Shown: in pieces, positions 14,949 to 22,775 of the stretch
Numbering within the stretch: position 1 is the first letter of the stretch
Layout of the letters: every line of letters starts with the position of its first letter
Source: Deltaproteobacteria bacterium
Lineage (GTDB): Bacteria > Myxococcota > UBA796 > SXON01
Direction of reading: 5' to 3'
Length of the DNA: 35,508 nucleotides
NCBI GenBank assembly: GCA_947483545.1
Contig: CANKNP010000008.1
Coordinates: 1-35,508 of the forward strand
Position numbers and translations under genes: made by a program
The notes under the pieces: generated by a model
Told to the model about the DNA's origin: nothing
Database searches by the model: none
Seen by the model: only the letters and a program-made list of their open reading frames with translations

Positions 14949-15401
14949 ATGACGTATCCGCCGATCGAGAGCCTCATTCCGCACCGCGCGCCCCATCGCC
15001 ATGTCTCGCGCATCGTCGCCGTGAACGGAACCCGGGCCGTGGCCGAGGGCGATTTTGTGCCGGAAGACGTGTCGGGGCACTTCCCGGGGCGCCCGATCAT
15101 CCCCGGCGTGGTGATGGTGGAAGCGCTGGCCCAAACGCTCTGCGCGATGGCGACGCTCGCCGGAGAGCATGGCCAGGCCGTGCTCACCGGGGTCGAGAAG
15201 GCCCGGTTCCGGGGGATCGTGATGCCGCCGTGTACGCTCACGTACGAGGTGGATGTGACCGAGCGGCGCCTCGGGGTCACCTGGGCGAAGGGGCGCGTGC
15301 TGCGGGGCGGCGAGGTGGTGTGTACCGCGACCCTGCAAGCGGCCATCGTGCCCGAGGCGGTCCTCGCCGCGGCGGGCGCGCAGGGGCCGGCGGAGGCGTG
15401 A
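14949..15401 (+). CDS. FabZ-like 3-hydroxyacyl-ACP dehydratase (hot-dog fold)
   Basis: 150 aa. The active-site helix region GHFPGRPIIPGVVMVEALAQ contains H44 and E58; their 14-residue spacing equals that of H54/E68 in E. coli FabZ. It should dehydrate 3-hydroxyacyl chains on ACP. Its C-terminus is slightly extended and Ala-rich. Start ATG 14949 is 34 bp from the divergent asd start, leaving almost no room for promoters outside coding DNA. Its stop overlaps the GTG of the next gene (GTGA, 15398-15401). The setting suggests a dedicated dehydratase for a special acyl chain rather than the housekeeping fabZ. Confidence 0.87.
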   Translation: MTYPPIESLIPHRAPHRHVSRIVAVNGTRAVAEGDFVPEDVSGHFPGRPIIPGVVMVEALAQTLCAMATLAGEHGQAVLTGVEKARFRGIVMPPCTLTYEVDVTERRLGVTWAKGRVLRGGEVVCTATLQAAIVPEAVLAAAGAQGPAEA

Positions 15402-16900
15402 AACGCGCCGTTGTTGTCGGCTCGGGGGCGGGGGGCCTCGCCTCCGCCGTGATGCTGGCCCAGGCGGGTTGGGCCGTGACCGTGCTTGAGCAACACACAC
15501 GGGCGGGCGGGTTCCTGCACCGTTTTTTCCGCAAGGGGATCGGCTACGACACTGGGTTCCACTACATTGGATCGGCCGGGCCTCAGCAGCTGGTCTGGCG
15601 GATTTTCGGGCACCTCGGTATTCGAGAGAAGCTCCGACTGATGCCTTTGGACCCTGAAGGTTTCGATTGGATCCGGTTCCCCGGGCTGGATTTCCGGGTC
15701 CCCGTCGGCGTGGACAACTACGGCGAGCGCCTCCGCCAACAATTTCCGCACGAGGCGGCCGGCATCGCGAGGTACATCCAACTCCACAAGGAGACCTGCG
15801 CCGCTTACGGATGGTACAACCTTGATCTGTCCGTCCCCGTGGACCGGGTCTTGCGCGCGGAGGGGATCTCGCTGCGCGAGGTGCTCGATGATTGCTTCCG
15901 CGATGTCCGGCTCCGCGCGGTGGTCGCCGGGCAGGCGGTTTTGTACGGTGTCCCCCCGAAGGATGCGCCGCTGGGACTGCACGCCGTCGTCACCGACCAC
16001 TTTCTCCAGGGCGCGTACACAGTGCGCGGCGGGGGCGACCGGATCGCGATGGAGCTGGTGCGTCGGCTGCGGTCTTTGGGCGGTGTGCTGAAGCTCCGCG
16101 CGCGCGTCGAGCACATCGAGGTCCAGGGCGGAGCCGCGGTCGCAGTCCACGCGGGCGGCGTGCGGTACGACGCCGATCTCATCGTCGCCAACGCCCATCC
16201 GAAGCATGTGTTGGAGCTCCTGCCGGAGGGTGCGACGCGGCCGGCCTACCGGGATCGCGTAGTGGATGCGACCGCAGGGCGCGGGCACCTCGGCCTCTAC
16301 ATGCGCGTCAAGGGCGACCTTTCCCAACTCGCGCGGCGGAACCTCTACCGGTTCAGCTCCTTCGATGAGGCGGTGCTGGACCAGCCGGCGACGCCTTCGT
16401 CCATCCCGTTCTGGTTCCTGACCGCGCCGGGGGCTCGCGATCCGGGTCGCCCTGGGTCGGAGCAGGTCGTGCTGGGGCTGATCCAGACCGACTGGAAGGA
16501 CCTGCGGTCGAAGGTCCCGGAGATCGGCACGCCGGGGGAGCCTGCGGCGTACCAAAGCCCCGCCTATCTGGCTTGGAAGCGCGAGATGGTTGCGGCGTGT
16601 GTAAAGGCGACGACCGCCGATTTCCCGGGGTGGGAGGTGCTGGAGGCAGAGGGTTCCAGCCCGCTGACCACTTGGCGGTACACGGGTTCCCCAGAGGGCG
16701 CGACGTACGGGCATTACCATTCGGTCGCCCAAATGGGCAGGTATCGCCTGCCGATCAAGGTGCGGGTGAAGAACCTGCTCCAGGTTGGCCACGCCGTCGG
16801 GTTTCCGGGGATTTGCGGCGCGATGATGAGCGCGTACGCCGCGCTCGGCGATGTGTTGGGTGCAGAACAGCTCGTTTCCGAGCTCAAGGAGGTTCAGTGA
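15398..16900 (+). CDS. CrtI / CrtISO / retinol-saturase-like FAD oxidoreductase
   Basis: 500 aa from GTG 15398, with GGAGG at 15392-15396 and a 4-bp overlap with the dehydratase stop. The frame is open far upstream, but that is antisense to asd. The N-terminal FAD-binding motif is VVVGSGAGGLASAVMLAQAG, then LEQHTRAGGFLHRF and YDTGFHYIG, the last typical of carotenoid isomerases and retinol saturases. The C-terminus NLLQVGHAVGFPGICGAMMS fits the second FAD motif of the phytoene-desaturase family. Such enzymes add, remove or move double bonds in long polyenes. Between a dehydratase and a ketosynthase, an acyl or polyene substrate is more likely than a carotenoid, and no other carotenoid genes are nearby. 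Its TGA shares one base with the next ATG. Confidence 0.85.
   Translation: MKRAVVVGSGAGGLASAVMLAQAGWAVTVLEQHTRAGGFLHRFFRKGIGYDTGFHYIGSAGPQQLVWRIFGHLGIREKLRLMPLDPEGFDWIRFPGLDFRVPVGVDNYGERLRQQFPHEAAGIARYIQLHKETCAAYGWYNLDLSVPVDRVLRAEGISLREVLDDCFRDVRLRAVVAGQAVLYGVPPKDAPLGLHAVVTDHFLQGAYTVRGGGDRIAMELVRRLRSLGGVLKLRARVEHIEVQGGAAVAVHAGGVRYDADLIVANAHPKHVLELLPEGATRPAYRDRVVDATAGRGHLGLYMRVKGDLSQLARRNLYRFSSFDEAVLDQPATPSSIPFWFLTAPGARDPGRPGSEQVVLGLIQTDWKDLRSKVPEIGTPGEPAAYQSPAYLAWKREMVAACVKATTADFPGWEVLEAEGSSPLTTWRYTGSPEGATYGHYHSVAQMGRYRLPIKVRVKNLLQVGHAVGFPGICGAMMSAYAALGDVLGAEQLVSELKEVQ
16886..16892 (+). promoter_or_regulatory. Strong ribosome-binding site of the ketosynthase gene
   Basis: AAGGAGG lies 7 bp before ATG 16900, inside the end of the FAD oxidoreductase gene. 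It fixes the ketosynthase start and supports coupled translation. Confidence 0.8.
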
Positions 16901-18138
16901 TGCGTCGCGTTGTTGTGACAGGCTTCGGCCTGGTGTCCCCACTCGGGTGTGATGCGGAGGCCGCGTGGCGCGGTGTGCTCGCAGGGGCGAGCGGCGTGGT
17001 CGGGATGCCAGCGTTCGCAGAGGTCGCAGACCTCGGGACGCGGATCGCCGCCCCGGTCCAGGGGTTCGTGCCGGAGCGCATCCCTCGAAAAATACGGCGG
17101 AGCATGTCGCGCATGTCGCAGTACGCGACCGCAGCGGCCACGGATGCGCTCGCCCATGCGCGCTTTCCGATGGAGGAGCTACCGGGTGGGCGCGTCGCCA
17201 TCGTCGCCGGCTCCACCACCGGCTCCCCGGACGCGATGGAAGAGTTCTGGCGGGAGTTCATCGAGACGAAGTCGATTCGCGGGGTACAAAGCACGTCGTT
17301 CCTGAAAGTGATGTCCCACACCGTCTCCAGCCACCTCGCGCTGGCGTTTGGCGTGACGGGGCCCATCCACGCGCCCTGCTGCGCCTGTGCCGTGTCCAAC
17401 CAGGCTGTGGGCGTCGGCCTGGACCTCATCCGGCTCGGCCGAGCGGACGCGGTGATCGCCGGCGGTGCCGATGAGCTCTCGCTGCTCTCCGCCGCGACCT
17501 TTGACGTCGTGCGCGCCGGTTGTCGTGGCCACGAGGACGCCCCCACCCTTCGCCCCGCCCCGTTCGACCGTACCCGGGACGGTGTGGTGTGCGCGGAGGG
17601 CGCCGCCATCGTCATCCTGGAGGAGCGCGAGCGCGCGATCAAGCGAGGCGCGCCGATCCTCGGAGAGATCCTCGGCTACGGCGAGTCCTGCGACGCGAAC
17701 CACATGTCCACGCCCGAGCCGACCGGGATGCGCATGGCGATGGAGCGCGCCCTGGCCGACGCGAACCTGCCCGCCAGCGTGGTGGACTACGTCTGCGCGC
17801 ACGCGACAGGCACCCTCCTGGGGGATGCCGCGGAGGCGCTCGCGACCCATGAGGTGTTCGGCAGCAAGGTCCCGGTCGCGAGCCTCAAGGGCAACTACGG
17901 CCACATGCTCGCGGCGTGCGGTACGACCGAGCTCATCGCGTGTCTGCTCGGGATGCGCGATGGCATCATTCCTGGGACGCGGAACCTCCACAATCCCGAC
18001 GTGGCGCCGATCCTGCTCCCCCAAGCCCCGCTCCACCGGGAGCAGCGGGTGGTGGTGAGCAACAACTTCGCGTTCGGCGGAATCAACGCCTCGCTGGTGA
18101 TCGGGCGGGGGGCACCCGGGGATTCAGCGACCGGTTAG
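16900..18138 (+). CDS. FabF-like beta-ketoacyl-ACP synthase
   Basis: 412 aa, the normal KAS II length. It has the condensing triad C163, H301 (CAHATGTLLGDAAE) and H335 (KGNYGHMLAACG), plus NNFAFGGINAS near the C-terminus. It should extend acyl chains with malonyl-ACP. The nucleophile region is unusual: the usual TAC-T-SG is replaced by CCACAVSN, and the common NAHGTSTP by CAHATGTLL. These changes set it apart from housekeeping FabF and suggest a specialised clade. The start is set by AAGGAGG upstream, and the ATG overlaps the previous TGA by one base. Stop TAG; glgP follows after 25 bp. Third member of a dehydratase/oxidoreductase/ketosynthase operon. Confidence 0.9.
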   Translation: MRRVVVTGFGLVSPLGCDAEAAWRGVLAGASGVVGMPAFAEVADLGTRIAAPVQGFVPERIPRKIRRSMSRMSQYATAAATDALAHARFPMEELPGGRVAIVAGSTTGSPDAMEEFWREFIETKSIRGVQSTSFLKVMSHTVSSHLALAFGVTGPIHAPCCACAVSNQAVGVGLDLIRLGRADAVIAGGADELSLLSAATFDVVRAGCRGHEDAPTLRPAPFDRTRDGVVCAEGAAIVILEERERAIKRGAPILGEILGYGESCDANHMSTPEPTGMRMAMERALADANLPASVVDYVCAHATGTLLGDAAEALATHEVFGSKVPVASLKGNYGHMLAACGTTELIACLLGMRDGIIPGTRNLHNPDVAPILLPQAPLHREQRVVVSNNFAFGGINASLVIGRGAPGDSATG

Positions 18139-20164: not shown

Positions 20165-21412
20165 ATGCCCATCACCAAGAACATCGGCCTCTCCCTCGGC
20201 GCGGACCTCTGCTGGCCCGCCTGCTACGAGGCGATCATCTCGAAGCTGAACTTGAGCCTTCCGACGCCCTCGGGCGACAGCATGCAGTTCAACATCGAGC
20301 GCGTTCGGCCCGAACCCTTCGACCTTCGCTACAAGCCCAAATACGACGTGGTGGTGGACCGAATCACCCATTGGTTCCCGACCACCCGGGAGTGGGTGAA
20401 GAAGATCATGCTGATGGACGACGTATACGTCCTGAACAACCCGTGGATGATCCAATCCGCGGAGAAGCACACGACCTACTGCGCGATGATGCGGCTCGGG
20501 TTCCCCATCCCGGAGACGTGGTTGGTCCCCCCGAAAGAGTATGCGGACGAGGGCGACGTGCTGACCACCGTGCGCCGGTACAACAAGCTGTTCGACCTGC
20601 AAGACGTCGGCCGGGCCGTCGGCTTTCCCCAGTTCATGAAGCCCTACGACGGCGGGGCCTGGCGTGGCGTGACCAAGATCGCGGACGGTGCAGCGCTGGC
20701 GAAGTCCTACGATGCGTCTGAAAAGCAGTTGATGCACGTCCAAAAGGGCGTCGATCCGTTCGATCTCTTCGTGCGGGGCATCGGCATCGGGCCGCAGGTC
20801 AATTGCATCAAATACGATCCGGGGGCGCCTTTGCACGCCCGCTACGTGGTGGACTTCAACTTCTTGAACGGCGACGAGTGGCTGACCCTCACCCGCTTCA
20901 GCCGCGTCATCAACGCGTTCTTCTGCTGGGACTACAACTCGTGTGAGTCGCTCCGCAAGGACGGCACGTTCTTCCCGATCGACTTTGCGAACGCCTGCCC
21001 GGATAGCCAGGTTACAAGCCTCCATTTCCACTTCCCGTGGATCGTGAAGTCGCTCGTGAAGTGGTCCCTGTTCTGCGCGTACAGCGAGCGAAAGCCGGTG
21101 TTGAACCCCAACTGGGCGCCCTATTTCAAGATCGCCGACAAGGACATTCCCTTTTCGGAGAAGCTCGAACAATACGACGTGCTCGCGCGCGAGCATTTTG
21201 ACGCCGACCGCTTCGAAGAATTCTGCCACACGCATTTGAGCCACCTCGACGAGGTCGCCGTGGAGTTCTTCGCCACCCCCGCGTGCAAGGAGATCTTCCG
21301 GGAGAAGGTGGCCGCGCTGTTCCCGAAGCACGAGGTGGACGAATTCACCGACCATTTCTACGGGTTGGTGCAGTTCTGGGTCCGCACGGAGCGGGACCGG
21401 CTCTCGCGGTAG
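20165..21412 (+). CDS. Uncharacterised ATP-grasp-like protein
   Basis: 415 aa, 15 bp after glgP with GGAG before ATG 20165, so very likely cotranscribed. The layout resembles ATP-grasp ligases: an N-terminal part with a YDVVVDRITHWFPTTREW segment, then NNPWMIQSAEKHTTYCAMMRLGFPIPETWLV spanning the pre-ATP region, then GFPQFMKPYDGGAWRGV like the ATP-binding lysine and Gly-rich loop. Later WLTLTRFSRVINAF and PIDFANACPDSQV may hold metal-binding acids (D in IDFANA). It lacks a signal peptide and membrane segments. RimK- or D-Ala-ligase-like chemistry is possible, but the substrate is unknown; the glycogen phosphorylase neighbour hints at a role with glucan or a sugar phosphate. The family call is inferred by eye. 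Confidence 0.75.
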   Translation: MPITKNIGLSLGADLCWPACYEAIISKLNLSLPTPSGDSMQFNIERVRPEPFDLRYKPKYDVVVDRITHWFPTTREWVKKIMLMDDVYVLNNPWMIQSAEKHTTYCAMMRLGFPIPETWLVPPKEYADEGDVLTTVRRYNKLFDLQDVGRAVGFPQFMKPYDGGAWRGVTKIADGAALAKSYDASEKQLMHVQKGVDPFDLFVRGIGIGPQVNCIKYDPGAPLHARYVVDFNFLNGDEWLTLTRFSRVINAFFCWDYNSCESLRKDGTFFPIDFANACPDSQVTSLHFHFPWIVKSLVKWSLFCAYSERKPVLNPNWAPYFKIADKDIPFSEKLEQYDVLAREHFDADRFEEFCHTHLSHLDEVAVEFFATPACKEIFREKVAALFPKHEVDEFTDHFYGLVQFWVRTERDRLSR

Positions 21413-21443: not shown

Positions 21444-22775
21444 GTGCTGCTCGTCGCCCTCACCCTCGGATGCGCCCAACCAGAGGCTTCCAACCCCACG
21501 GAACGGTTGGGCGGCTGGACCGACCATCTGGGCCGCGCCGTTCACCACCGCGGCATGAACGTCGCCTCCACGGCCAAGACCAGCGCGGACCACCTTCCCG
21601 GGTTTGACGACGCCGCCTACGATCTGCTCCCGGCCTACGGCATCACCCTCGTGCGCTACCTGGTGTTCTGGGAGGCAATCGAGCCCACGGAAGGTTTGTA
21701 CGACGACGCCTATTTGGATGCTGTCGCGCTCGACATCCAACGCCTTCGGGACCGGGACGTCGAGGTCATGCTCGATTTTCACCAGGACGTTTACGGAGAG
21801 GGTTTCGGCTTCACAGGTTTCCCCCGCTGGACGTGTGACGAAGCGCAATATGAGACCTTCACGCCCAACACGACGTCTTGGGCGCTCAATTATCTGGCGC
21901 CCGAGGTTCAATATTGTTTTGACGCCTTTTGGGCGTCGTCCGAGCTGCAGGATTCCTACATCGCGATGGCGACCCACGCAGCGAGCCGCTTGGACGCCCT
22001 CGTGATCGGCTACGACACAATGAACGAGCCCTTCTGGGGCACGTCCGCCCAGGAGGCGTTGGAGACCGGCGCGTTTGGCGATTTTCAGGCCGCCGTCGTC
22101 GATGCGCTTCGGGCGGTCTCCCCCGACGCGTGGATCGCGTTGGAGCCTCTCGCGTATACGAACTTCACCGGGGACAGTTACCTCCCCTTCCCGGCCGACA
22201 TCTCGGAGCGCGGGGGTCTGCTCTACGCGCCGCATTTCTACCCGCCCTACGCCGAATCCGGCGAGGGTTGGGACGGCACGTTCGAGGACGAGGCCGATTG
22301 GCTCAACGGGCTCGCCGATCAGGCCGACGAGCGTGGCGCTGGCTTATGGCTCGGCGAGTTCGGGATCTTCGCAGAGAACGGCAACGAGGTCGAGTACATC
22401 CGGAGCGTGATCGACACCCTGGCGGCGCGCGGCGCCTCCACCGCCTATTGGGCGTTTGATCCTGGCCAGATCTTCGACGGCGAGACAAACGCCCCCGGCG
22501 AGGTGTTCACCGCCTGGCAGCGGCCCTTCGTCCACGCAATGCCTGGGCGGATGGTCTCGATCGCGCACGACGGTTCGGACAGCGAGGTGGTCTACGCCCC
22601 CGTGCTGCCCGACTTGCCGCTTACGATCGTGCTCCCGGAGGGGGCATGCGGCACGCTCACGATCTCCACGGTCCCGACGATGCTGGGGGTCGGGGTCGTG
22701 ACGACGCCGGGCCGGATCGAGCTGTACGGGGAGGCGACCGGGGAGCAGTGGGTGGGGTTGGCGTGCGCGCCTTAG
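21444..22775 (+). CDS. GH5 glycoside hydrolase lipoprotein, endoglycoceramidase-like
   Basis: 443 aa. An in-frame TAA 9 bp upstream fixes GTG 21444 as the earliest start. The resulting signal is very short (lipobox TLGC, C10) and lacks the usual positive charges, though a lipobox is clear. The GH5 body shows HRGMNVAS, VRYLVFWEAIEP, MLDFHQDVYGEGFGFTGFP, the acid/base E195 in YDTMNEP and the nucleophile E305 in LGEFG. The HQDVYGEGFG stretch and the C-terminal beta domain are typical of endoglycoceramidases, which release the oligosaccharide from glycosphingolipids; related GH5 enzymes cleave simpler glycosides. An outer-surface lipoprotein location is expected. Stop TAG overlaps the convergent neighbour's stop. 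Confidence 0.85.
   Translation: MLLVALTLGCAQPEASNPTERLGGWTDHLGRAVHHRGMNVASTAKTSADHLPGFDDAAYDLLPAYGITLVRYLVFWEAIEPTEGLYDDAYLDAVALDIQRLRDRDVEVMLDFHQDVYGEGFGFTGFPRWTCDEAQYETFTPNTTSWALNYLAPEVQYCFDAFWASSELQDSYIAMATHAASRLDALVIGYDTMNEPFWGTSAQEALETGAFGDFQAAVVDALRAVSPDAWIALEPLAYTNFTGDSYLPFPADISERGGLLYAPHFYPPYAESGEGWDGTFEDEADWLNGLADQADERGAGLWLGEFGIFAENGNEVEYIRSVIDTLAARGASTAYWAFDPGQIFDGETNAPGEVFTAWQRPFVHAMPGRMVSIAHDGSDSEVVYAPVLPDLPLTIVLPEGACGTLTISTVPTMLGVGVVTTPGRIELYGEATGEQWVGLACAP

Follow-up and report, generated by a model that had tools for sequence, protein, structure and literature searches.

Three overlapping genes in a 35,508-nucleotide stretch of Deltaproteobacteria bacterium DNA (contig CANKNP010000008.1 of assembly GCA_947483545.1; hereafter the window) encode a FabZ-like dehydratase, a CrtI/RetSat-like FAD-dependent oxidoreductase (the FAD enzyme), and a ketosynthase (KS). 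We found that this trio is very probably a module of a flexirubin-type aryl-polyene pathway that is split over several chromosomal loci. The evidence lies in the conservation of the trio, the aryl-polyene genes that accompany it in related genomes, the co-occurrence of its FAD gene with an exporter gene, and the positions of its enzymes in phylogenetic trees. An earlier note on this DNA had seen in the trio a specialised add-on to fatty-acid synthesis, which might make a polyene, conjugated or cyclic lipid, and had pointed to the ladderane-candidate genes of anammox bacteria.

Conservation of the trio

Genome contigs were scanned with the FAD enzyme, and all 15 loci compared, the window included, were found through the FAD gene. 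Since the simple gene caller merged or mis-stranded some frames (in the window, in L003, and for LolA in L106), key points were checked by tblastn. The phylum to which G004 (the genome carrying L004) belongs was represented by 282 genomes, and the FAD enzyme was present in 15 of them at E ≤ 1e-60, the preselected genomes G001 to G005 included. Its identity to the window enzyme was 68-75% in L001-L004, 53% in L005, and 27-28% in the Bacteroidales loci L006-L009; L004 was from a Myxococcales bacterium, and L001-L003 and L005 were from an uncultured proteobacterium. The order asd, FabZ, FAD, KS was kept in L001, L003, and L004, and L002 starts at the FAD gene. The KS gene lay 3' of the FAD gene in every one of the 15 loci, and a FabZ gene lay 5' of it in 13, missing in L050 and L054. 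These counts support the trio as a conserved unit, above chance. Against L001, dN values of 0.067, 0.197, and 0.114 and dS values of 0.98, 1.28, and 0.96 for FabZ, FAD, and KS respectively gave dN/dS ratios of about 0.07, 0.15, and 0.12, which argues for purifying selection on the trio.

Aryl-polyene genes in relatives

Among the 11 more distant loci (L005 and L045-L054), the trio, or the FAD and KS genes, adjoined acyl carrier proteins (ACPs) and other aryl-polyene genes in 10. At least one ACP gene was within the fetched stretch in 10 of these loci, the exception being L054, a contig of 5.9 kb. Further neighbours, not present in every locus, were a KS/chain-length factor (CLF) of about 500 aa (PRK09185-like), a polysaccharide deacetylase, DUF2062, PlsC, LolA, a halogenase-like FAD enzyme (Pfam Trp_halogenase), a GT2/lipid A acyltransferase fusion, and an RND-type exporter fused to a C45 acyltransferase domain. 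The halogenase-like enzyme contains WIWIIP, which fits the halogenase motif WxWxIP. The exporter-C45 (AAT-like) fusion was observed at L046:6992-10936 and in homologues. One by one, genes of the relatives matched ApeC (27%, E 1e-5), ApeD, ApeE, ApeF, ApeJ, ApeL (E 1e-4), ApeM, ApeO, ApeQ, and ApeR of Escherichia coli CFT073. ApeK was matched by genes in L205 and L213, ApeI by the FabZ of L052 (E 8e-9), and the ketoreductase (KR) of L052 was 43% identical to ApeQ.

The pathway is split in the close relatives G001-G004, because the remaining parts lay on two or more contigs other than that of the trio; these are draft genomes, in which distances between contigs are not readable. A main cluster of exporter, LolA, PlsC, GT2/acyltransferase, ACP1, ACP2, halogenase-like enzyme, and DUF2062 was on G001 C103, G002 C182, G003 C93, and G004 C168, and the KS/CLF was apart from it on C124, C40, C330, and C31 respectively. 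An ApeO/ApeC-like pair was within the main cluster in G001 and G002, whereas G003 had it on C308. In G004 neither this pair nor an extension KS was seen. Pathway parts were also split in G149 and G187. By analogy, the host genome of the window would have the same split and the other loci. As a separate observation, a second conserved set of KS genes, accompanied by a FabZ-like gene and showing no positional link to the trio, was present on G001 C6, G002 C77, G003 C234, and G004 C159 (L055-L059).

The exporter query matched 18 of the 282 genomes at E ≤ 1e-60, and 14 of these were among the 15 genomes with the FAD enzyme (Fisher p 3e-19, a test that takes the genomes as independent, with kinship not accounted for). 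With the five preselected genomes removed, 9 genomes were in common out of 10 and 13 (p 3e-13). Four genomes had an exporter match only, and three of them (G081, G139, and G265) matched the C45 part alone.

Affinity of the KS and the FAD enzyme

The window KS was 40% identical to E. coli ApeR (E 2e-90) and 33% to ApeO (E 4e-39; CFT073 ape cluster, L139), and it scored 336 bits against the NCBIfam fabF model, below the cut-off of 494. In a KS tree of 43 rows, it grouped with other trio KSs in a clade of 11 rows (support 100/99); E. coli ApeR and Bacteroidales KSs joined this clade in a wider group of 21 rows (100/99). The three FabF rows included in the tree, a fourth (L017) having been missed by the filter, formed a clade of their own (100/100), and the ApeO and CLF types formed another group (95/89). 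By its sequence, the KS is of the ape/flx type and not a FabF.

Among NCBIfam models, crtI_fam matched the FAD enzyme best, scoring 103.5 bits where the cut-off is 238.1. The structure model of the enzyme (pLDDT 94) had a carotenoid desaturase as the nearest solved fold. The first FAD tree held 34 of 77 frames, after removal of duplicates, truncated copies, and some carotenoid-type paralogues. In it, the window enzyme, 15 trio-type enzymes, and 3 Bacteroidales enzymes formed a 19-row group (100/99), with L054 placed among the Bacteroidales rows. Nine carotenoid-type rows from the same genomes were apart (100/100), and six other paralogues were also outside the group. The second tree (35 rows) covered 15 of the 20 Bacteroidota stretches described below, without L183, L187, L189, and L191, and with L194 not caught by the motif filter. 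It joined the trio type and the Bacteroidota enzymes (100/97) and set four carotenoid rows apart (100/99); three paralogue rows in this tree had long branches, and many rows had unlike letter make-up. The window enzyme thus differs from the CrtI/CrtD carotenoid desaturases by score and by clade. Separate CrtI-family genes scoring above the family cut-off were present in 12 of the 15 genomes. Since the FAD enzyme was not of carotenoid type, the KS was not a FabF, and the trio was conserved, none of the outcomes that the earlier note had named as counting against its proposal occurred.

A related FAD enzyme in flexirubin-like neighbourhoods of Bacteroidota

A related FAD enzyme was found in 23 of 296 Bacteroidota genomes at E ≤ 1e-70 (the genome of the query counted), and 20 of these, all except G283, G530, and G550, were fetched as stretches of 19.4 kb. 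The neighbourhood was flexirubin-like in 18 of the 20. Neighbours were a C45 protein (19 of 20), an AMP-ligase (18), GT2 (18), LolA (17), an ApeI-like dehydratase (17), an RND exporter (14), an ApeR-type KS (6), a KR (6, two of them weak), and an aromatic amino-acid lyase, a lipid A-type acyltransferase, and a halogenase-like gene (5 each); Pfam scanning was applied to one cluster. The C45 protein was the sole such neighbour in L179, and L194 had none. In most stretches it was encoded by a separate gene adjoining the FAD gene. Flexirubin clusters contain the tyrosine ammonia-lyase FlxA, the ligase FlxY, several KS, KR, and dehydratase genes, a deacetylase, an acyltransferase, LolA, a glycosyltransferase, and an exporter (PMC3992019). 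The words FAD, phytoene, oxidoreductase, and retinol are absent from the main text of that source, whose gene tables are supplementary. Such clusters are widespread in Bacteroidetes (PMC9248904), and aryl-polyene clusters have already been reported in Myxococcota (PMC11821767).

Features of the trio and its surroundings

The coordinates of the trio are given in Table 1. As the earlier note had described, the genes overlap by 4 bp (GTGA at 15398-15401) and by 1 bp (the A at 16900, common to TGA and ATG), and the dehydratase has both catalytic residues in place. Its FabA-like domain scored 67.6 bits (E 1e-18), and NCBIfam FabZ models matched it with scores below cut-off. The Cys-His-His triad of the KS was intact, and an alignment of 12 sequences showed no variation at Cys163, His301, His335, or Lys330. 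The flanking motif was indeed atypical, HATGT standing where the two nearest solved structures and E. coli ApeR/ApeO have the usual HGTST/HGTAT; HATGT was also found in several cluster relatives.

Table 1. Genes of the trio and catalytic codons in the window
Feature	Position	Strand	Remark
FabZ-like 3-hydroxyacyl-ACP dehydratase	14949-15401	+	Pfam FabA-like domain
CrtI/RetSat-like FAD-dependent oxidoreductase	15398-16900	+	GTG start; Pfam Amino_oxidase and NAD_binding_8
ApeR-type KS	16900-18138	+	ATG begins on the final base of the FAD gene stop
FabZ-like His44 codon	15078-15080	+	
FabZ-like Glu58 codon	15120-15122	+	
KS Cys163 codon	17386-17388	+	
KS His301 codon	17800-17802	+	
KS His335 codon	17902-17904	+	

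The trio is flanked by a divergent upstream gene for aspartate-semialdehyde dehydrogenase (asd) and by a downstream alpha-glucan phosphorylase gene. With the references used, no ACP, KR, or other aryl-polyene gene besides the trio was found in the 35.5 kb window, and no carotenoid gene was found among the scanned neighbours, in agreement with the earlier note. Elsewhere in the window, positions 20165-21412 encode a 415 aa protein with no Pfam match and weak similarity to RimK-type ATP-grasp ligases, and positions 21444-22775 encode a GH5 protein with weak endoglycoceramidase similarity. The second KS locus of G003 includes a homologue of the GH5 protein at 62% identity (L058:6252-7691).

Supply of the aryl starter

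In G201, which has its trio in L052, another contig (L205) carried a deacetylase, a KS/CLF, an ApeK-like thioesterase, an aromatic lyase, and a flexirubin-type ligase close together. Aromatic lyases were present in all 16 genomes searched, mostly unlinked to pathway genes, and no pathway genes were seen beside the lyase in the lyase loci of G001, G004, G005, G108, and G196. Tandem pairs of aromatic amino-acid (histidine/tyrosine-type) lyases were observed in L206 (G108), L207 (G005), and L216 (G196) and, from match positions, in G019, G149, G173, G187, and G270; one lyase of each pair may be a histidine ammonia-lyase.

Discussion

We propose that the trio would act in an ACP-bound assembly resembling type II polyketide and fatty-acid synthases. 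The ApeR-type KS would prime the chain, and the extension KS and CLF, encoded elsewhere, would elongate it on dedicated ACPs. Dehydration of 3-hydroxyacyl-ACP by the FabZ-like enzyme would give a growing conjugated polyene, on which the CrtI-like flavoenzyme may perform a chain-directed step. The halogenase-like enzyme, the GT2/acyltransferase, LolA, and the RND exporter-C45 fusion would then tailor the product and transport it outward. As to the flavoenzyme, cis/trans isomerisation of the carrier-bound polyene is possible, its desaturation is a more tentative suggestion, and saturation is unlikely; there is an appreciable chance, short of even, that the step is something else.

Several observations weigh against the assignment to a split flexirubin-type pathway. 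The window contains the trio only, with no pathway genes in the 14 kb 5' and 17 kb 3' of it, and at E 1e-3 BLAST matched its FabZ to neither ApeI nor ApeP. G100 has the main cluster (L214) and the exporter without a FAD match, and G082 has the FAD enzyme with only weak exporter matches. A match to E. coli ApeH was found in none of the 15 genomes, in a search without a positive control, and a starter lyase and ligase adjoining pathway genes were seen only in G201. The polyene of E. coli is made without a CrtI-like enzyme, and an E. coli apeR deletion still made the full aryl-polyene lipid (PMC8253772), so that an essential priming role for the ApeR-type KS is doubtful.

That the trio is a stand-alone add-on, making a polyunsaturated acyl chain with housekeeping ACP and FabG, would agree with its isolation in the window and in close relatives. 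We consider this improbable, since the same genomes carry ACPs, a CLF, an extension KS, an exporter, and tailoring genes matching aryl-polyene/flexirubin machinery, and the FAD gene and the exporter co-occur. The chance assembly of a carotenoid gene with housekeeping FabF and FabZ is scarcely credible: superfamily membership and the nearest solved fold speak for it, but most of the genomes have CrtI-family genes of their own, and the trees place both the FAD enzyme and the KS elsewhere.

It is very improbable that the product is a ladderane-like or other cyclic lipid, in which case, following the anammox proposal, the FAD enzyme would desaturate a fatty chain before its cyclisation. The anammox candidate clusters do join FabF paralogues, FabZ, ACPs, FabG, and phytoene-desaturase-like genes with a phenylacetyl-CoA-ligase-like gene and a glycosyltransferase (PMC4790861, PMC2649909), a resemblance that flexirubin-type clusters show equally. 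Radical SAM, a part of the ladderane proposal, was matched by none of the 38 Pfam-scanned proteins from the window and the loci of relatives (a subset of the neighbours), and the gene-by-gene matches of the relatives were to aryl-polyene genes. That lycopene was not formed by the products of kuste3336 and kuste3607 (PMC4790861) is neutral here. A further alternative is that the FAD enzyme builds the aryl head by aromatising a cyclised polyene and so replaces the aryl starter, as in cinnamoyl peptides, whose proposed route combines cyclisation with desaturation (PMC6510318). The missing ApeH match is consistent with this, as is the absence of starter genes next to pathway genes in those loci of close relatives that were inspected, but a cyclising isomerase was not identified. 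Moreover, 5 of the 20 Bacteroidota stretches pair the FAD enzyme with a neighbouring aromatic amino-acid lyase, and G201 has both lyase and ligase, which argues that it is not a simple starter replacement, and we regard this alternative as quite improbable. The earlier interpretation was borne out in its conserved unit and its guess of a polyene; the add-on to fatty-acid synthesis was not supported, and nothing specific to ladderanes was found.

The proposed pathway was compared with the closest known systems. The flexirubin (flx) clusters of Chitinophaga pinensis and Flavobacterium johnsoniae (PMC3992019) resemble the gene make-up around the Bacteroidota FAD relatives, and they share with the window's relatives the C45 protein, exporter, GT2/acyltransferase, and LolA, to which G201 adds the lyase and ligase. 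The close relatives of the window differ in that the pathway is split over loci, the C45 domain is fused to the exporter, and no lyase or ligase was seen alongside. The ape genes of E. coli CFT073, to which most parts were matched (ApeI or ApeK in some relatives only), are described as a single 15.5 kb cluster of 18 genes without a CrtI-like enzyme, C45 domain, or halogenase-like gene (PMC8253772), and differ also in the ApeH that the relatives' genomes did not match. The xanthomonadin/arcuflavin system of Azoarcus has a halogenase, deacetylase, exporter, LolA, glycosyltransferase, and acyltransferase, and the polyene part of its pigment comes from two separate gene clusters; in contrast, the text available of that source names no FAD/phytoene-type enzyme, and the starter is supplied via a chorismate-using enzyme (PMC3949708).

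Together, these results turn a seemingly orphan operon for an unusual lipid into a recognisable part of a known kind of pigment pathway, flexirubin-like products being yellow-orange membrane pigments. Gene-cluster searches would miss the trio where the pathway is scattered. The CrtI-like flavoenzyme is singled out as a conserved enzyme that is given no step in the open-licence aryl-polyene/flexirubin literature, as far as its available text goes. More speculatively, and with considerable doubt, it may catalyse a core step of flexirubin-type aryl-polyene synthesis that has gone unrecognised in at least two phyla, as an isomerase or desaturase whose substrate is the polyene on its carrier. Anammox bacteria would then have relatives of it in the phytoene-desaturase-like genes of their ladderane candidate clusters, and ladderane and flexirubin clusters would be variants of one polyene-making machine. 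The role of the FAD enzyme bears on the question of active control over polyene geometry or desaturation, and it may offer a handle on the similar ladderane-candidate genes.

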